Source of the DNA: Tubulanus polymorphus
Lineage: Eukaryota > Nemertea > Palaeonemertea > Tubulaniformes > Tubulanidae
Reading direction: 5' to 3'
Assembly: GCF_964204645.1 (NCBI RefSeq)
Contig: NC_134030.1
Span: 2,643,855 to 2,707,854 of the forward strand
DNA: 64,000 nt
Position numbers and translations under genes: made by a program. This document shows, piece by piece, positions 1 to 37,859 of the stretch (position 1 is its first letter; every line of letters begins with the position of its first letter). The notes below the pieces were generated by a model. That model was given only the letters and a program-made list of their open reading frames with translations, did no database searches and had not been told where the DNA came from.

Positions 1-15223
<15,223 letters not shown>

Positions 15224-16978: not shown

Positions 16979-18062
16979 TCACACAATACTGCCTGTTTCT
17001 ATATCATCTGTAAAACCACTAGTAATACGTGGATATTTCACCTCGACCGGTTCAGATATTTCCGGACGTTGTTTCGCGCGTCGCCGCGAGCTTCCGTTTT
17101 CACTAACCCCCGATTCGTAGTGAACGCTACCGTCGAATGATGAAATCACCGCAGTCATACCCTCCGCGCCGGTGAACTCTTCCGGTTGGATTTTATTCTC
17201 GAATCGTCGCGGACGGTGTACCGCGTCGTCGCTGTCGTGACCTCCATCTCCCGGCGAACGCTCCGACTCGTGTCGGCGATGATGATGTTTTTTCTTCTTG
17301 CGTCGATGTCGTTTCGGCGACGTCTGCTCAGGTTCCGTCGGAGCCAACGCGTTTAGAGGGGGTAACGGTAAAGCACGTTTAAACGGACTGTCGGCGAATT
17401 CATCCGGCGGTCGCAATATTAAACCGTCCTTTACTGTTGGTGATACGGGTGGCAACGGTCTCGAAGGAAGAGCACGATCTTGTCTGAAATAGAGAGAACA
17501 CTTCTATCAATCATTCATTCATTCATTCGTTGATCTCTGGTCAAGATTTCCGTGATTTGAAGTTTCTGCTAATTCTCCTGTCCCTGGAGACAGCAGAAAT
17601 CTATCAAGAAGAGAATATTCTTCGGGCAAAGCATAATTGAAAAGTGCCCGAGTCATATTTGAAGAGGATGAAATGGTACTCGTACCGGAATCATGCTCAA
17701 CTTTTGCTCAGAAAGTTTCTCAACATTTCATATAGCATCAAAATACAAAAAAATACTACTTGTAAAACCATTATCAGAAAAAGTTGTTTTCAAGTAAAAG
17801 ATATCGTCTATTGCGTGTATATCTAGGTTGTCGCAAAAGGAGAATGTCAAACAGGAAAGACTAGTTTTTCAAATAGGAGGAGGTGACTAGCTTGTGAAAG
17901 AGTTGACCCGAATATGAGTTGAGTGAACCACTCACCCGCTTAATTCCGATTTAGTTTTATGTTCGTCTTGAAATTGTTCAGGATTAACGGCGCCATCTGG
18001 ATTATCACGTTCAGCAGGCGCGACCAAATTCACGTCTTCGTTTTGTTTCGATGTATTTCTCT
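16979..18062 (-). CDS. Alternative long cytoplasmic tail of IgTM-A (two exons)
   Basis: Exons 18062-17936 (127 nt) and 17483-16979 (505 nt). The first has a TTTCAG acceptor in phase 1, matching the phase-1 donor of the IgTM-A membrane exon at 22128; the two tail exons join in phase 2 to give SELSG/QDRALPSRPLPP. Joined to the upstream exons the frame closes exactly, for about 543 aa. The tail is hydrophilic: proline-rich SH3-ligand-like stretches (SRPLPPVSP, RALPLPPL), a strongly basic run (KRHRRKKKKHHHRRH) and tyrosines near the end (HYESG, KYPRI). The stop is TGA at 16981-16979. I infer an alternative tail that skips the two short-tail exons at 21733-21496. A separate gene lacking a visible start is the alternative; no other membrane exon is seen between 18.1 and 21.4 kb. 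Confidence 0.6.
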
Positions 18063-21000
18063 CTGAAACGACAAATGTTAGAAATAAATATTCAGTCGGA
18101 CTCTCATACTGCAGGAAATATTCAATGATCTTTAAATCAGCCATTGACCAGGCTAATTGACCATGTTCGTGGTCCGATTCACAAAAATGATAAACTCCTA
18201 AATTGTTGTTCTGCAGCCAGTCTAGCTGACCCTGTTCAGCAGCTTGACTGACGAACCCTGTTCAGCAGAGCTTGACTGACTAATCCTGTTCAGCAGCCTG
18301 ACTGATAAACCCAAATAGACTCTTTCATCATAAATGTAAATTTCATTATATATATTTAATTGAAAAAACCATCCGTTTATTAACAACAAAACAAGAATAC
18401 AGTAAGCAGTTCTTTAAGTGAACAATTTCCTTTTTTAATAATTTTCAAATACTTATTATACCACTGGGTATGGACTTGTAAACAAAAAGTGGATGATGAA
18501 AAATCTCAACTTTATTAATGGTGACAAATCGCGATCTTAATTTAAATCGTGTCTTTAGAGAATGACAATAAAAATGGATGAATTTAGATCAATCTCGAAG
18601 ATATCATAATAGTTGGATATTTCATTATCATCTTCATTGACAATCAGCTCATCAATCGTAATAACAATACATAATGACCGAATTTCAGGGGCCACTGATC
18701 CAGGGGACTCTTATAGTGCCATTTTCTATTTTTCAATGAACAAAAATTGTAAAATTTCAGTGATGTGGGAAGTGACAAGTTCAAGTTCCTGTTTTAAACA
18801 GCTGGAGTTTACAGTCTGAGGTCCTGTTACAAGTGGCAAAGTTTGTCAGCATAAAACAGCCGGATGTAGAGTTTGATAAGCCCCTCGGTGCGAAAATCAT
18901 TCAATATTGCCTTTTTGAACATCAAAGTGCTCTTTTGGATTGTGACAAGTTTTTCAAAATCAGACCCTGGATCCTCCCCTGAATTTTCATTCATACCAAT
19001 ATGGATATTATTTTTCCCTTAGTTTATTCTATCTAAGAGCATGATTATTTCATTGAGATAAGAAAGCTCCTCTATTATGCACGGTCAACGTGATTCTACA
19101 ATAATCATTATAGCATTGATTTAATTATTTACACTAGGTGAATCCCGTTAACACCTCTTTTCAGCAATCTTGAATAACAATATAATCTGTGATTACGTAT
19201 GGAAAATTTAACAAGTAAGAATTAAAACTGTCAATATTTAGCCACCTGACAAGTGCTGCCATCTGGCGTTTGATACAAAAACTATTCCATATGACTCAAC
19301 TGCGCATTAGATGATTTATAATTGAGGCGTGTTCACATTTCTATTCTGAGTTGTTGTTACCAGGTGTGGTTATAATAGAACACATTATTTCAAAACAGCT
19401 ACCACCACACACTAATACTATCGGCACTACTACATAGCAATTACTCTCATCTCATATAGAAATACTGTTATATTCTCTTGTTGTACATGACACAAAATTG
19501 GATAAGCTTACGAATGATATTATAGAACGAACTAAGTTGTCTGAGACTGGTCTTAGTTCTAATCCGAGACAATGGAACTGGCCCTTGAATATGTGACTAT
19601 ACGGTATCACTCGTTTTATTCGGATTTTCACATATTTTGGTCCCCTCTGGTTAATTTCTATTCAAACGAGGGCACAGACTTCATTTCATTCGTGAAAAAT
19701 TTACCAGTCTCCGGTTCTACTGTATAACATCCATATTACAGGTATTCAATCTGTAGCCCTTCAGACAATCATCCACGTAATGAACACACTATGAACACTA
19801 CATTGCCTGTGTTGGAAATTGTACAGATATTGTATCTAACATATGTAGTTCATTTTCATTTAGAAATGTCTCGGGTAAAGTTTTGAAAACATGTGGAGTG
19901 TGGACGATCAAAATTGGAAGACTGACGATTAAGGTGTTGAATGTATTGTGTAAGTGCAGGGTCCAGGCAGCAGATTGATACAACACGATATTGTAATTAT
20001 TTGGACAAAAAAGCCATCAATAGTAGAATTAATGCTATTTTACACGCAGCACAAGTGGTAAACTGTTAAACTGATCCGGATTTAGTGAAATTGAAAGATA
20101 TTTGTAAAAGTAAACCTCACTTTACTTGGTCAAACTGCAACTGAAAAAAAATTGGTCCGAAAAATAAAATAGGAAATCAAAAAATGATTTTTTGTTTTTG
20201 TCCAAGTCTGGTGAAAGTCAGCAGCGAGTTGTTGACCAAGACTGAGTTTAGCAAGATTTACTTTGTAAGTAACTACATCATATATTACAAATTAGGTAAA
20301 TAACAATATATTCATAACAAATTCTTCTAAAGAATATTTTGATACGGATTTTGTATAACATAACATGTAATTATATAAATCAGGAGGAGGTGGCAGGGAG
20401 AGGGGGTGGCAGGGAGAGGGGGTCACCTATTTCAATGGGATAGATACCGTAAAGATAAGATAGTTATAATTATATCGAATAACAATACAGCTAATAAAAA
20501 TATTCACCATGCTGTTCACTTCTTGATTTGAATTTTATGTCAAATCAATGCACTGAATTTGAAAACTTTTTCATCTAAGAATTGGTCATGGTCATGCAGC
20601 CTTTTCATAGGACTAACCGAAATTGCTAGACTATGGTATATCAGATTTTGTACTTAAATTTTGTCATTGCTTTTTTACAAAACCGTCGTAGACACAGTCT
20701 GTCTAATTTGTCATTTTTTTTAGAATATGTACAATCAAATACATAAACATGTACATTAACAAATATAACTCAAGAGAATGACTTTAATGGACACAGGACG
20801 GATTAAAGTCTTCATATGATCACAAATCATTTCATCGGCATACAATTAATAGAATAGAATATTTCACGTGATATCCATGAAATACTTCTCCTATGAGACA
20901 TATAGACTTGATCTATGAATAATTCAAATCGGATAAAACTTGATTCTTTGTTAGTTAATTCAATCGGGTATAGTTTGAATAAGTTCCTGAAACGAGGAAG

Positions 21001-21485
21001 TTTGAACGTCAAAATTTTGCAATAAATTCCCCTAACTGAATTCCTCTATTCAAACAAACAAAAAAACCAGTTATATTCTATATAACTGCGATAAAAACCG
21101 ACAAAAATACAGTAGTTACACATGACAACACAATGCTTTGAATAACAGTAGAAACTCTGTTTATCTCTGCCTTCTTGGGACTAATGAATTTTCTCCAGGG
21201 CACGGAGTAAATTCTGGGGTAGTCGGAGAGACATGAATGGAAAGTAGAAAGATTGGTTGTGTCAAGTGTAATAATAAAATTGATCATTATCAACAACAAG
21301 AACTATTAACCCTATCCATGTAACATTACTAAAATTGTCTCTATTTTCAGTCCGAATTTGGATTTATAATTCAATTTCAAAGTGTAAGTCGTCATTTGGA
21401 TAAGTCATCAACTAAATGCCCCAACTAGACTCAAACCAATGTCACTCTATCCTGCTATTTTTATCCTGGTGCGAATTTTTAAAAA
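18063..21485. other. Spacer between the two alternative tails of IgTM-A
   Basis: I see no convincing coding exon. It holds the conserved block at 19861-20010, AT-rich sequence shared with units B and C, and a short GGGAGAGGGGGTGGCA tandem near 20390. Confidence 0.4.
19861..20110. repeat. Highly conserved block of the Ig unit, copy A
   Basis: About 140 bases here are nearly identical to 28899-29040 and 37860-37995, while the flanks carry many indels. The minus strand is open in all three (MLYQSAAWTLHLHNTF...). On the plus strand B and C share a frame ending DPDLVKLKNICKNDI that is broken in A by a stop. It may be an old transposon fragment or an element kept alike by gene conversion. Confidence 0.5.
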
Positions 21486-21495
21486 TTTATTTATT
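21486..21495 (-). terminator. AATAAA signals directly after the short-tail stop of IgTM-A
   Basis: On the minus strand the stop TAA is followed at once by AATAAATAAA. If used, the 3' UTR would be extremely short; a downstream site is also possible. B and C read GATAAA here. Confidence 0.35.
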
Positions 21496-24400
21496 TTAAA
21501 TGGTTTGACCATTACGTGGGTCAGTTGACATCGGTACAGCGCCAACTTCACCTGAAATTTTGAAAAAAAGATAAAATTCTTCAGCAAAATTTCAACTTTT
21601 TCAGATAGAATTTAAGAATCAATAAGCAGTCAATATTTACCCGGATTTTGGAAAGCTTGGTTCATGTTTCCATTTACTTTTGGACTGCTGTTGCAGTTGC
21701 TGTTGTTGTTGGGGTTATTGCAATTGTTCATTTCTGTAATCAAGAAATTCTTTTTCTCGCAAAATGCTTATGAGTTCAACACTGAGTGGAACAAAGGAAT
21801 CGACAATTTTAGGCACAAAATAAACAACCATTTCAACATTTTATAATTTCCCTAGTGTCGCTTGAGCAGGAACGAGCAGCCATTAAATCCATGTCATAAT
21901 CATAGATTCCTATAAATTCTACTATCTATCCATTCTAAATAAATTCAATCTACTTTCGATGATTGAACAGAAATCTTTGATCAAGTGTGACTCTAGAAAA
22001 ATGTCATTTTGTAGCCCGAATCTCATATTATTCATTAAAATCAAAGATGGCTGCTTGAAAACGAAATTGGTGCATCATGTGAGTGCTATGTGCAGTTTGC
22101 AATGGATAGAATAGAATTTGTACTTACTCTTACAATAGCAGATTATTGATATCATGAGTCCAGAAATCACTATAATAATCACTATTACAATTACACTAAC
22201 ACAAGCAGGTACGTTACATTTACACCAACCATCATCGCATAGCTCAGTAATAGGTCCCGCTAAAAAAGAAATAAGATATTTAAATTCATGCTCATTTACA
22301 TTCATCATTCCAAAATGATTGTTATTCATTAGTGTAGGTATTTACTCTGCATTTTTTCATATTTATACAACTAATATTCATAACTTTTTGTGTGCGAAAG
22401 TTGACTTAACCCATTAGACGCCGCAACTTCATATGTATGATCCAGAATAACAAACTCTTAATTAGCCAATTGAATTTTCATATAAAGATTTAGTAGATGC
22501 AGTGTGAAAACTATTGAAAATGATACATTACAACCATTGGTTATTTTGAAGATTTACTATCTATTGCTGTATCGATTTGGTCAATCATTGATCAAAACTT
22601 TGACCTTTGACCCCCTCAAACTATAGATGGCGCTATAGTACAGCGGACGTTGGCGGACATTCTGAGGAGATACAAGTCGAATGTCGACGAATGTTCTGCG
22701 GTCCATTGGGTTAATAGATAAGCCTCCTCTCACCCCTTCCCAAAAAGAATTTGAGTGATACTTACTTGTAGGTTCTTCTGAAAATATATCAATTCAAAAT
22801 GCATTAGAATCTGTTAAATACAGTAGAAACTGCTTCCAAGAGCGGGGCAGTTCAACTGGGATTATAAGATTCTCTAAAAGTATTTTTAGTATTTTGAGGT
22901 ATTTGAGGATGTTTTATGAATTTCATTTTTTATCTGAAGTCATGGTTCCCACAGTTATATGAATTCAAAATTCCCAAGTATTTCATGGGTGATTTTTCAA
23001 TGTTCCCAAATGGAAATGAACATGTCTTATCGTCATGCTACAGTCAACATTTTAGCGGTGACTGGTTGACATAGGTGATTTTCAAGGGAAATCGCTGAAG
23101 AAAGTTGCCTTTGGCAAATGCAATATGTGAAATGTAATGAATTTTCCAAATAATTCCCTGATTTGAGGAAAATTTTTCAAATTCCAAATATTTTGTAACT
23201 GGGTATGTTTATTTCAAAATTCCAAAGTTTTTACCCAATTTCCCTGTTCTGTGGGAACCATGTGAAGTTGACTATTCATTTCTATAACGTTGTCAACAAA
23301 CAACCCAGACTGGCGAGAGTGGAATGCTATTGAATGAATCGATTGAAATAGCTCTGTTGAATGCTGAATAGCTGTATGGGAGTTCCATGAATATGCGGGG
23401 AAAACCCCGGTGATCAATAGACGTAATTGAAAGCTCTAATCAAAACAACTGACAATATCATACTCATATATGAAATGCACGTAAATGATTTTTAAACTGA
23501 TAAAATGAAAGGAAAGTTTCAATTGAAATTACTCTAGCCAAGAGATTTCACTGATTGTAGAATAACAGCAACAAAGCAAGTTTTACTGAATTAATTGAAG
23601 AAATTATATCGAGAGTTTAACTCTTTTGAGAAACTTGACCTTGATTCGCTATTGGGTGAGATATTTACATTCTCAATATTACTGAATAGGAGGCAGTTTC
23701 ACGAGGCTAAACATTTACCTTCAGGTTGACATTTCACCAGTTTGTTCAGATTATTGACATCATATGCACAGCAACGCACATTCTTAATTTCTGTTGCGTT
23801 CTCTAAAACCAGGACACTTTTACTGCGATATTTTGGCCACTTCGGTATAAGTGGACAACTATCATTATTCACAGGGTCGTTAGTGATACTGACTGGATCT
23901 TTCTATGAAATAATGAAACAATTTTTGAATAAACAAAAATGCTAATTGCAGAATTAATTGCTACGAATGAAACCTGAATTCAGAGAATTACTTCAATAAG
24001 TCGCCTCTAATTTCTATTCCCAAATCTATTTGCTAAGAATAAGTCATCATCAACTTAATGATCGTCAAAACTAAATGAACTACGAGGACTTAAAAGTGAC
24101 CGAGTTTAACTGTAATTAAAAAAATTATACTGTTTTTCAGCAATGATGTAGTTTGTGAAAATTTCCCTATTTGATGTAGGCCTAAAAAACTTACTGGTTC
24201 TGTTCCATTAACCGTCCATTTATATGAATATTGTGAGAATGTACAGGCTCCGGTTCCTTCATCAACAGAATCTCCCGCTAAACAAGTGAATTCTGTCTTA
24301 TCATCAGATGATGTCATGTTTATCAGCTGTGGTACGTCTGAAAAATTTTGGTAATTTTGGCAATCCTTTAATAATACAGTGTAAAAATCAATATTTTAGT

Positions 24401-26929
24401 TCAGCAGCTGGTCTTCGTCTGTGATGGTCCTTTGAAGACTTATATCTGGTATGTACCAACAAAACTGACAGAACTAGGCCACCTGGACGTCCTCTTATGT
24501 TAAGTTGAAAGACTTGAGTCTCTTATGTCAGTTGCTAAAGCAGAGTATGTCACAGGCAGTCACAAGTCTCAGGCAGACACAAGTCACTGACAGTCAGTCG
24601 GTTGGCATTTCCTGAAAAATAGGTGTGACAGGCAAAGAGTGAAAGCCAGGTGCAGTGTTTTCAATAAGAAATTAACAAGCCAGGTCCCTTTGAAAAACAG
24701 GAGGGTCCCATAATATGTCACCGTTCCGGAAATGAAAGCTGGTTTGAAAAAACAGGCGGGTCCTTTACAAACAACAGACGGGTCTGGGACCTGGAACCTG
24801 GCTCTTATTGAAAACATTGAGGTGTAGGTCAGGGGCCAGTTGCTCAAAAGTTGGTTAAAGATAATTGTAACAATGAAATTTCAATTGTCACCATATCAAC
24901 TATCCACTGGTTAACTCTAACCAACTTTTCAGCAACCGGCCCCAGGATTTCCATGTTTATAGAATAAAACTAGAAAAAGAAATACTTTCATCAAATTGTT
25001 TTTTTTTTGTTTATCTGGCTCTGTTTTCTCATGTAGAATTAGTAGTATTTCTCAAGTGATAGAGCCTGGTGCGATGCAGAGGGGGTACTTTGCAGGAAAT
25101 ATGTCAGGTGTTTTGAGCCCCACTTCAATAGATAAGGTGTCACTAACACACTGCAAAGAATCACCATGGGCTATAAAACAAAGGGCCATGAAAACACGGC
25201 GAAAGATCAGAGGATATTTTTCCTCAGTGTTTTCGAAATTTAGCACAAATTTGAAATGCATTGACTTATGTGCTATAAATTTTCAACGAGGTGCAAAACG
25301 TACTTTGTTTTTAGTCCATAGAATGACTGATGATAATCTGTTTTAGTAGTACAGTCATTAACCTAACTGGTGTCATGCAATTAATTCGCCATCTATTAGG
25401 CCTATCAGAGTTTAGAAACAGTACGTTTTGACCATACTCCCTCAGCAGGGATTTGAACCTGATGGCACCGAAACCCTGCCACACTAGACCGGGTGCGCAG
25501 CTTAGATGATGACATTATCAGCCAATCAGAAATCTTGTTTTATTTTAGCGCGCGTTTTTTCCATTTATAGTTCTTCCATGTAATTTGTCTCAGAGATTAT
25601 ACAACGAAAGCAATCTGATTGGTGCCGCAAGTTTTTGTGCAGCAAACTCGCGCACCTGGTCCAGTGGGGCAGAGGTTCGTGCTGTGGCCGAGTGTAGAGG
25701 TGCCATCAGGTTTGAATCCCTGCCGGTGTATCATGGCTTTTGGCAGGAAAGTGATGGGAACTTTCAGCTATTCCAGTATGTCTTTGGCAGAAGTTAATAT
25801 GGAGAAAACTAAATTTTGACAGATACTCACCGGTAAGAGTGTATTGTAAACTGTCTAATACATTTCCTACGATACATTTAAAAACAGGTGTCCCGTAATT
25901 ATACCAGCGATCATCAAACATTTTAAACGTCATCGTTAAATTCGCCTCGGTACCGCTCCCCTCCGGATTGTCTCCCGTACACTTTATATCGAACGTGTTG
26001 AAGTCGATAAATAAAGTTGTATTCTTGAAAGCTCTCGCTGGGTATTTTTTACAGTTTGTATTGAATGTAACGTATGAATTACGAGGAGCAGTGTCCATAG
26101 GTCCTTCAGGTTCAACCCTGAACACCGATGAAACACCAGCCGGATCTGGAAAGTCTCTTATCGTACACGTCATATTATACCAGTCTGTAGTTAGCATATC
26201 AGTGTTCCTATTACTAGTCAGTGTTATACTGAGAGCCATCACACCTGAAATATAATATATCTATCTATTTAAACACGGTATAAACAGTTTAATTCATCAA
26301 TTCACCAGAATCAGTGAACACAAGGCGCTGTACGACCTAGAGAGGAGTGTTCATCCTCGCTTGCCAGGGTTCGATTGCCGCCCGCCGAAGCTCACACCAA
26401 AACAAACCCTGGCTTAAAACCCTTCATCGGTTTATCACATCGCCTGAGATTGCCGCTAAAAGTGGCTATCAGTCTATGTATCAAGCAAATCATGCGGTAG
26501 ATTCGCTACACATCTGTTTGGCTAGATATATATAGATTGATGGGGGCTGAGCAGCTGTCAGTTTGGCATAGAAATCTTAGGCAATTTAATATACCAATGA
26601 AATTGAAAGGCAAGCGAGGGTGGGTGAGGAGAGCTGTGGTCGGTATGCCTGCTGTTTAGGTGTCCCTAATGGTTATGTACCTAACCTTAACACTTAACAC
26701 TAGCACCACCCAGTGGATAAGGTGACCCAAACTGCAGACCCCAGGGGACCCCAGTACGTAATAACAAATAAATTAGAACAGAATTAAAGAAAGAATGAAT
26801 GAAAGACTGCTAACTTGATGAATTCGGGTAGAAGAAAACCAGCATCACCAGCAGAGCAGCAGCAACAGCCGCTGCATTAGCAGCTACCGCTTTTTTCATC
26901 GCCCACGGTTTTACAGATCGAATAATCAT
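21496..26929 (-). CDS. IgTM-A: type I membrane receptor with two Ig-like domains, short-tail form
   Basis: Exons: 26929-26815 (signal peptide MIIRSVKPWAMKK plus an Ala/Leu-rich core), 26244-25831 (Ig-like 1), 24337-24195 and 23902-23719 (Ig-like 2 in two exons), 22777-22766 (microexon), 22259-22128 (stalk and membrane helix), 21733-21641 and 21551-21496 (tail). The total is 1,149 nt, 382 aa, with all phases consistent. Ig1 has YNMTCTIRDF and VFKCIVGN as the likely disulfide cysteines, plus two more; Ig2 has FTCLAG, then YKWTV, and NVRCCAYD. Several NxT/S sites fit a glycosylated cell-surface protein. The stalk PITELCDDGWCKCN precedes a Val/Ile-rich helix and CYCKK. The tail is asparagine-rich and ends NPGEVGAVPMSTDPRNGQTI. 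The donor of exon 1 is CAA/GTTAGC. I do not recognise the family; a recognition or immune role is only inference from the tandem duplication. Confidence 0.8.
21734..22016 (-). repeat. Near-identical intron block between membrane and short-tail exons, copy A
   Basis: This sequence just upstream of the short-tail acceptor matches 30901-31183 and 39628-39910 almost base for base, with a run of about 180 bases identical between A and B. It is more conserved than the short-tail exon it adjoins. Confidence 0.75.
22766..22777 (-). CDS. 12-nt microexon of IgTM-A
   Basis: AAGAACCTACAA sits between ATATATTTTCAG and GTAAGTATC, a good acceptor and donor. Phase 1 on both sides inserts four residues (EEPT) between Ig-like 2 and the stalk without shifting the frame. 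In copies B and C the same 12 bases survive, but the acceptor reads TTTTCGG and the donor reads AAGTCG. Confidence 0.65.
24832..24943. mobile_element. 112-bp palindromic MITE (GGGGCCAGTTGCTCAAA family)
   Basis: Starts GGGGCCAGTTGCTCAAAAGT and ends CTTTTCAGCAACCGGCCCC, a near-perfect fold-back, in an intron of IgTM-A. Same family as 5152-5270. Confidence 0.75.
25446..25723. mobile_element. 278-bp MITE with 24-bp inverted ends
   Basis: GCAGGGATTTGAACCTGATG is mirrored by CATCAGGTTTGAATCCCTGC with 22 of 24 matches over the full arms. It sits in the intron after Ig-like 1 of IgTM-A and is absent from B and C, so it arrived after or outside the duplications. Related ends occur at 48231-48459 and 61443-61470. 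Confidence 0.75.
26352..26630. repeat. Inverted-end repeat (CATCCTCGCTTGCCAGGG), IgTM-A intron 1
   Basis: CCTCGCTTGCC at the left and GGCAAGCGAGG at the right are exact complements. The whole block recurs in unit B (33458-33728) and partly in C (43560-43680). The same end word also stands alone near 27140, 36040 and 36583, suggesting a dispersed element family. Confidence 0.55.
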
Positions 26930-27035: not shown

Positions 27036-27290
27036 AAACCCAGCAAATCGCTTCCTGGTCGACTGATGCGACTTCTATCGATAAATCGTTCTACTATAAT
27101 CAATACAAATTCATATGTTCATTGCGCAAAGAAAATGTCATCCTCGCTTGCCAGGGCTGTCGTCAGGTTTCAACGAAACTCTGTATGTTACCCGGGTACC
27201 AAGAAACATCGTATCAAGTAGTAGATAGATCACGAGATTTATATCACTACAGGGGCGCGTCTAGGGTCTGAATCAGGAAGGGGTACACCC

Positions 27291-27330
27291 GATTTTCAGC
27301 ATTCACGTCGGTTCGATTTCTAGGGGTCGG
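27291..27330 (-). pseudogene. Relic of long-tail exon 1 in unit B
   Basis: Only the core matching the stretch around 18020-18045 remains. The acceptor, the internal reading frame and all sequence downstream of the breakpoint are gone, so it cannot be spliced as in copy A. Confidence 0.6.
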
Positions 27331-36733: not shown

Positions 36734-36785
36734 CCATCTGGATTTTCAGCAGGCGCGACCAAATTCACGTCGGTTCGATTTCTAG
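36734..36785 (-). pseudogene. Relic of long-tail exon 1 in unit C
   Basis: CCATCTGGATT, then CAGCAGGCGCGACCAAATT, then CACGTC, match copy A at 17994-18035 with a 6-base deletion. The sequence that should supply the acceptor is replaced and downstream tail sequence is absent. This pins the duplication breakpoint inside the exon. Confidence 0.72.
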
Positions 36786-37859
36786 TTTAGGGGTCGGAAA
36801 TGAAGACTACTCACTCCGGACTAGGGGTCTAACCTGCAGGAAATATTTAATGATCAATCAGCCGGTGACCAGGCTAAATGACCTTGTTTTGAGATCCATT
36901 TCAAAAATAAACTCCTAAATTAATCTATATGAGGTTGTTCAGCAATGCCTGACTGATGACCCGGTTCAGTAACCTGCCTGATTGACCCTGTTCAGCAGCC
37001 TGACTGATAAACCCAAATAGACTCGGTCATTAATGTAAATCTCCATTAAATATATTTCACAGGTTTATTAACAGCATTACAAGAATAAGCAGATAATTTT
37101 GAAGCGAATGAATTATTTCTTTTCGCCCCTTTTTTACATATTTCTCCCGAAAACGTTTGCTATAATATATATTACTCAAAAGAAAATGAGATTTGTACTG
37201 TTTTGTACTGTTTTTGTTTCTATGGAATTTGAATTATTTAGACTCTCTACCTCAGATCTATTTTTCAAATACTTATTACGGGTTCTTGTTAACAAAAAGT
37301 AGATGATGAAAAATATCAACTTATGATAGAACACATTATTTTAAAACAGCACACTCCAACTACACAGCAACATTACTCAATCTCATATAGAAATATCATT
37401 ACTCTCATCTGTACACAGCCCGATATCCAAAAGTGATAATCTTAGGAATGATATATAGAACGAATTAAGTGGTCGGAGACTGGTGTTAGATCTAGACAAC
37501 GGAACCGGTCCAACAATTTTTGATAATACAGAATAACTCATTTGGATCGGTTTTATTCGGATTTTCACTAATTTCGGACTAAAATTCCAGTCCTCTCTGT
37601 CATTTCTATTCAAATGTTAGCACGGACTTCATTAAACTTGTAAAAAAGTCTCCGGGGATCCAAATTAAGCGAGTTCTACTGGATAACATATGTATTGTAG
37701 GTTTTCAATCTGCAGCCCTTGAGACAATCATTTTTGGAAAATGTCTCTGGTGAAGTTCTGACCACATGTTAGTGATGATGATGATGATGATGATCAGTTT
37801 TTGAAAGTGTGCTGACGAAATGTCTAATGTCTGGTGTTTGTAGTTTATTTTCAATTAAA

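Follow-up and report, generated by a model that had tools for sequence, protein, structure and literature searches.

Identification of a three-copy receptor array

The locus studied here in Tubulanus polymorphus raises the question whether a single receptor gene can exchange a bare cytoplasmic tail for a signalling tail. The window, which is the whole stretch of 64,000 nucleotides that was analysed, contains three tandem copies of one receptor gene, all on the minus strand: copy C (43954-39404) and copy B (34039-30678), which are short-tail paralogues extending from exon sp to exon s2, and copy A (26929-16979), the final copy of the array. Each copy comprises a signal-peptide-like exon, three ectodomain exons, a membrane exon and two short-tail exons. 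Genome searches with the ectodomain and membrane exons gave strong matches to copies A, B and C only. The reading that we favour is that copy A is probably a single-pass receptor gene with two alternative 3' ends, one encoding a bare tail and the other a signalling tail. This reading is based on the frames of the exons, on scans for membrane exons, on the age of the long-tail exon l1, on the loss of the long end from copies B and C, and on the layout of a remote relative, the C10 gene. That both mRNAs are made, that the first short-tail exon (s1) is included in the long form and that the long tail signals is what we infer from these data.

Upstream of the tails, copy A starts with a signal-peptide-like first coding exon (26815..26929, minus strand, 115 nt, out phase 1), whose donor is weak (CAA/GTTAGC, matching 6 of 9 consensus bases, compared to 7 in copy B and 8 in copy C). 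The ectodomain is encoded on the same strand by exon 1 (25831..26244, 414 nt, phase 1-1), which holds the first Ig-like unit and whose protein is 91% identical to that of copy B and 94% to that of copy C, by exon 2a (24195..24337, 143 nt, out phase 0) and by exon 2b (23719..23902, 184 nt, out phase 1). The membrane exon (22128..22259, minus strand, 132 nt, phase 1-1) ends at a GTAAGT donor. An earlier model also included a 12-nt micro-exon (22766..22777, minus strand) inside a repeated stretch. This micro-exon is doubtful, and copies B and C no longer have the splice sites for it. Despite the repeat it was not discarded, because the C10 gene carries a 27-nt exon at the matching place. Pieces of the repeated stretch (22940-22764, 31725-31472, 40456-40199, and 42518-42275) are 92-95% alike. 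They occur in introns of the copies, with one further occurrence upstream of ectodomain exon 1 in copy C.

In each of the three copies, the exons for the first coding part, the ectodomain and the membrane part have open frames, and their lengths differ by multiples of three only (for copy A versus copies B and C, 115 vs 112 nt in the first exon, 184 vs 178 nt in exon 2b and 132 vs 135 nt in the membrane exon). Copies B and C are mostly 91-100% identical per block of 100 alignment columns, with a few blocks at 53-84%, and are recent copies of each other, with copy A more distant. In the short-tail exons and in those introns that it shares with B and C, copy A is about 90% identical to them, interrupted by stretches that do not align. 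Further downstream the alignment of copy A is only partial between 20109 and 19370 (70-82% identity in pieces), and from about 19370 to 18420 copy A does not align to B or C. Amid this poorly aligned downstream DNA, a block of about 269 bp is 93.7% identical between copy A (20109-19844) and copy B (29145-28877).

Substitution rates in the ectodomain were computed with the end of exon 2b cut off, where the lengths of copy A and copies B and C differ. The summed nd/N and sd/S values were 0.056 and 0.046 for A-B, 0.039 and 0.033 for A-C, and 0.035 and 0.039 for B-C. As replacement and silent rates are about equal, there is no clear constraint on the amino acid sequence between the copies, which suggests that ectodomain change is fast or weakly constrained. 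Across the region 26244-23719, replacement rates of copy A against B and C are equal to or slightly above silent rates, with all frames intact.

The original prediction labelled the receptor as an immunoglobulin-type membrane protein (IgTM), and this membership is weakly supported. Pfam searches detected no Ig domain in copy A, for which the whole protein gave three weak matches below the cut-off, including SCIMP (E 0.12) over the membrane part. A remote relative, gene D, matched Ig_3 at E 0.043, also below the Pfam cut-off. A profile of four first-unit sequences retrieved, at E ≤10, 49 PDB sequences (best E 0.21), most of which are antibody chains, and a profile of the whole ectodomain found three antibody light chains at E ≤1 (best E 0.66); copy A alone gave no antibody match in the PDB. 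A structure model of the first unit, made with the exon from the three copies, consists mostly of strands and has a mean pLDDT of 39, which is too poor for a fold search.

Splice routes into the two tails of copy A

The claim under study was that the phase 1 donor at 22128 can join either of two exons, starting at 21733 and 18062, and that these lead to mutually exclusive tails. Donor and both acceptors are present and correct to the base, and both routes close exactly, yielding proteins of 382 aa (short) and 543 aa (long), or 378 and 539 aa if the 12-nt micro-exon is omitted. Thus, two in-frame tail routes are found behind one membrane exon, all on the minus strand. The short route uses s1 (21641..21733, 93 nt, phase 1-1), which is Asn-rich, and the last exon s2 (21496..21551), which ends in GQTI with its stop at 21496. 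The resulting tail is about 50 residues long and contains neither tyrosines nor any of the ligand motifs looked for. The long route uses l1 (17936..18062, 127 nt, phase 1 in and phase 2 out) and the last exon l2 (16979..17483, 505 nt, stop at 16979).

Two further routes are open as well: membrane exon-s1-l1-l2 (575 codons including the stop) and, with s1 skipped, membrane exon-s2 (352 codons including the stop). Because s1 has phase 1-1 and can be both joined to l1 and skipped, the acceptors at 21733 and 18062 are compatible by frame. Mutual exclusion consequently holds for the last exons and not for the exon at 21733 versus that at 18062. The exclusive choice is between the stop-ended last exon 21551-21496 and the pair of exons starting at 18062 and 17483, and s1 is probably common to both tails.

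In the favoured reading, splicing would proceed from the membrane exon to the shared s1 and on to s2, giving the short tail, or alternatively past s2 to l1 and l2, adding 210 residues that contain SH3-ligand, PDZ-ligand and tyrosine forms. Two events would compete, termination of the transcript within or behind s2 and splicing onward to l1, and the outcome would decide the tail; termination at the poly(A) signals at 21495, 21491, or 18381 would give the bare one. Ligand binding would be identical in both forms. As only the long form could connect to the cell interior, the short form would be a silent or competing receptor. Points against this reading are the weak first-exon donor of copy A, the stretch from about 19370 to 18420 that does not align to B or C, the lack of clear constraint on the ectodomain and the indirect tie to the C10 gene, besides the features of s1, s2 and l2 given below.

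Remote relatives of the receptor

With the first ectodomain unit of copy A as a query, a relative with the same ectodomain plan was found at C6:2238569 (E 0.0056). This gene D (C6:2238530-2240478, plus strand) finds copies B, C, and A back (E 9.4e-4 to 0.0063), and finds the C10 gene (about C10:630910-626347, within C10:623501-633500, minus strand) at E 8.5e-7, with a reverse E of 3.0e-6. In the genome searches, copy A and the C10 gene did not match each other in either direction. In an alignment D is 23% and the C10 gene 21% identical to copy A, with cysteines and motifs in common. The kinship of copy A and the C10 gene is indirect and is drawn from the link through D, the common cysteines and motifs, and the exon phases. 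The family found thus consists of five genes (A, B, C, D, and the C10 gene). No description of this receptor family was found among the open-licence papers listed, which is no proof of absence.

In the C10 gene a membrane exon of 108 nt (phase 1-1) is followed by exons of 84 nt (1-1), 73 nt (1-2), and 177 nt (2-2) and by 190 nt up to the stop. All these exons are open, and the s1-like 84-nt exon, when read onward, gives a short tail ending in LYL. A short and a long end behind one phase 1 membrane exon can therefore be read twice from the DNA, in copy A and in the C10 gene. The phase match concerns few introns and is modest evidence, and no clear sequence likeness was seen between the tails of the two genes.

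The long tail of the C10 gene resembles an SH2 domain. Its best PDB match is phospholipase C-gamma 1 (E 9.1e-5), a match composed of one stretch of 6.8 bits and one of 17.5 bits; taken singly, the better stretch has an E of 0.037. The Pfam match to SH2 is below the cut-off (17.2 vs 27 bits, E 0.0043-0.0069). The tail matches the tandem SH2 region of phospholipase C-gamma across its joined exons, but differs from it by a His at the position of the phosphotyrosine-binding Arg. To our knowledge, a receptor carrying its own SH2-like domain would be unusual.

For gene D, no membrane exon (hydropathy ≥2.3) was located in C6 2238001-2258000, except for a poly-Leu repeat, and D may be secreted. D thus speaks neither for nor against a tail switch.

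Is the short end in use?

The s2 exon is also present in copies B and C, where it ends in GQSV, and its acceptor, frame and stop are kept in all three copies. The s1 exon of copies B and C is 79 nt long (93 nt in copy A) and frame-broken, and its use would end the protein inside s1, after about 17 residues beyond those of the membrane exon. A direct join of the membrane exon to s2 is possible in both copies. Between copy A and copies B and C, s2 carries three amino acid changes and no silent change. With all s2 changes being replacements and s1 broken in B and C, there is no sign of selection on the short tail.

These observations leave some room for the reading that there is no switch: copy A would be long-tailed only, with or without s1, s2 would be a leftover or a rare early end, and copies B and C would use the short end that remained to them. 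The substitutions in s2 and the broken s1 agree with this, as does the C10 gene, in which all exon phases suit one long route via the s1-like exon. The poly(A) signals are double-edged. Two of them lie directly after the s2 stop of copy A (21495 and 21491) and another, at 18381, is conserved across the three copies, which speaks for a switch; the absence of the first two from B and C speaks against it. The conservation of the s2 acceptor, frame and stop also counts in favour of a switch. We regard the absence of a switch as unlikely, although it is the strongest of the alternatives.

Coding potential of the long tail and its membrane exon

The favoured reading, in which copy A has two ends, further depends on l1 and l2 being part of the receptor gene. 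The long tail looks coding. The given frame of l2 is open in 1 of 2000 dinucleotide shuffles (8 of 2000 for any of the three frames), and the chance of 174 open codons at the local base composition is about 3e-6. It is one of 17 stop-to-stop frames of at least 120 aa in the window, and its G+C content is 53%, compared to 32-42% in the 2-kb bins of the window, with one bin at 49%. The purine frequency at the first codon position counts against l2 (0.55 vs 0.62-0.73 in the other exons). Using a simple score against all AG or GT on the minus strand, with ties counted, the donor at 17936 ranks in the top 0.6%, the acceptor at 17483 in the top 1.8%, and the acceptor at 18062 in the top 10%. A genome search with the long-tail protein matched its own two exons and nothing elsewhere, which makes the tail unlike a repeat. 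A Pfam search with the long tail identified no family, and its best PDB match had an E of 0.097, to a chain named mt-SAF38.

A distinct membrane exon feeding 18062 had been named in the original prediction as evidence that would speak against it, and within the limits of the scans no clear one was found. Scanning the window for phase 1-1 membrane exons gave no result on the plus strand, and on the minus strand it returned only those of copies A, B, and C. A looser hydrophobic scan gave nine distinct stretches in the window, six of them within 16500-45000, and five of these six derive from the three membrane exons. Between 21495 and 18063, this looser scan detected only a weak membrane-exon candidate at 19430 and no ATG-led hydrophobic exon.

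Remnants of the long-tail exon in copies B and C

A block upstream of l1 in copy A (18399-18109) aligns with copy C (37087-36834) and copy B (27623-27370). Past this block, by 63 bases in copy C and 73 in copy A, copy C holds a piece of l1 (36734..36771, minus strand) in which 27 exact exon bases (l1 exon positions 27-53) are followed directly by 11 more (positions 60-70), so that 6 nt of the exon are missing in between. Copy B contains a shorter remnant (27288..27321, minus strand), recognized via the alignment with copy C; on its own it has no run of at least 10 bases in common with l1. The TTTCAG acceptor of l1 is kept in neither B nor C, and l2 was not found in either copy. Copy C also resembles l1 at 37233, but this candidate was dropped, as the remnant at the matching place is that at 36771.

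Since copy C holds 38 l1 bases as well as s2, both ends are older than the duplication, and with l1 and l2 lost, copies B and C can by themselves only be short-tailed. The simplest history would be that the ancestor had both ends, that the duplicated unit broke within l1 and that the long end survived in copy A only. The same trace would result if the duplication had happened to break inside a downstream exon unrelated to the receptor; the remnant therefore speaks for the place and age of l1 and not for its joint transcription with the receptor.

In a second alternative, l1 and l2 form a separate small downstream gene lacking a membrane part, with a phase fit that arose by chance. Besides the ambiguity of the trace in copy C, it has in its favour that the l1 frame is open upstream of its acceptor to 18261 with an ATG inside, and that about 1 kb of copy A (19370-18420) does not align to B or C. 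This ATG, however, is kept in neither B nor C, the l1 acceptor stands in the fitting phase 1 with a CTAAC ending 11 nt before the CAG, and a long tail occupies the corresponding position behind the membrane exon of the C10 gene. We consider a separate gene improbable.

Taken as a regulatory switch by tail swapping, the original proposal thus stands in outline and gains from the lack of a rival membrane exon in the scans, the age of l1 and the C10 layout. It had to be revised as to which exons exclude each other, and the switch would be confined to copy A if the copies act singly.

Motifs in the long tail

The long tail was predicted to carry SH3-ligand prolines in SRPLPPVSP and RALPLPPL. Strict class I SH3 matches (RxxPxxP) are RALPSRP and RALPLPP; SRPLPPVSP does not match. 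Two [RK]xxPxxP motifs are present, a number reached by 924 of 20000 shuffles. The form RxLPxxP occurs twice, which none of 20000 shuffles reached, but this pattern was picked after inspection. A single match to the ITIM form [SIVL]xYxx[IVL] was found (VKYPRI; 1260 of 20000 shuffles reach one), and the YxxPhi form is present in 6546 of 20000 shuffles. The C-terminal SIV has the class I PDZ ligand form [ST]x[VIL] (426 of 20000 shuffles), which is missing from the short tail. The predicted basic run was recovered as at least 12 residues that are purely K, R, or H (0 of 20000 shuffles). The two RxLPxxP sites, the basic run, VKYPRI and SIV all lie in l2. Going by these motifs, the long tail is a putative SH3-ligand and PDZ-ligand tail.

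Comparison with known systems

The long form of CEACAM1 carries inhibitory motifs, as the title of PMC4113144 also indicates. In PMC2490704, CEACAM1 is described as having a short or a long cytoplasmic domain depending on the inclusion of exon 7, so that, as proposed for copy A, one receptor gene yields either domain by splicing. In CEACAM1 an exon is included or not, whereas the choice in copy A, as read from the DNA, lies between last exons. We suggest that copy A works like CEACAM1 in logic and do not claim membership of that family. Among horse CEACAM1 paralogues, PMC5856374 reports one that keeps functional inhibitory motifs and others that lost theirs by splicing changes or stops, which resembles the present array in that the signalling end is lost in duplicates. 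Unlike in those paralogues, it is the long-tail exons as such that have gone from copies B and C, with a piece of DNA left behind.

Tail switching itself is a known kind of regulation, seen here in the DNA of a little-known receptor family. If both forms are made, copy A would show in a compact way how an animal receptor can exist in a silent and in a signalling version, and the array would also contain the DNA trace of duplicates losing the signalling end. The wider family of five genes, in which different tail modules follow one and the same splice junction, would be informative on the gain and loss of signalling parts in surface receptors.

In clustered protocadherins, variable exons share constant exons. 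The array is like these clusters and like the chelicerate Dscam cassettes (PMC4835542) in that several ectodomain units in tandem precede one 3' tail. It is unlike them in that every unit comes with a membrane exon and a short tail and might by itself be a complete gene. A far-reaching reading would be a new receptor family with one splice switch and differing tails (SH2-like in the C10 gene, SH3/PDZ-ligand in copy A), in which the tail of copy A is perhaps common to three ectodomains in a protocadherin-like cluster; we give this little credence. Also very unlikely is that one long tail serves A, B, and C, with the membrane exons of B and C splicing over copy A to 18062. In its favour, these exons share phase and donor, their join to l1 and l2 would be open to the stop, and the array ends in the only long tail found. 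Against it, no copy lacks a first exon or a short tail, and such splicing would need to pass over the whole of copy A.

Outside the array, the window contains a tandem repeat of roughly four units, each about 105 bp long and 90-96% alike (15007-14583), and a repetitive stretch with long open frames on both strands (8288-8830). On the plus strand at 9411-9866 lies a 151-aa frame that looks like part of DNA polymerase epsilon.
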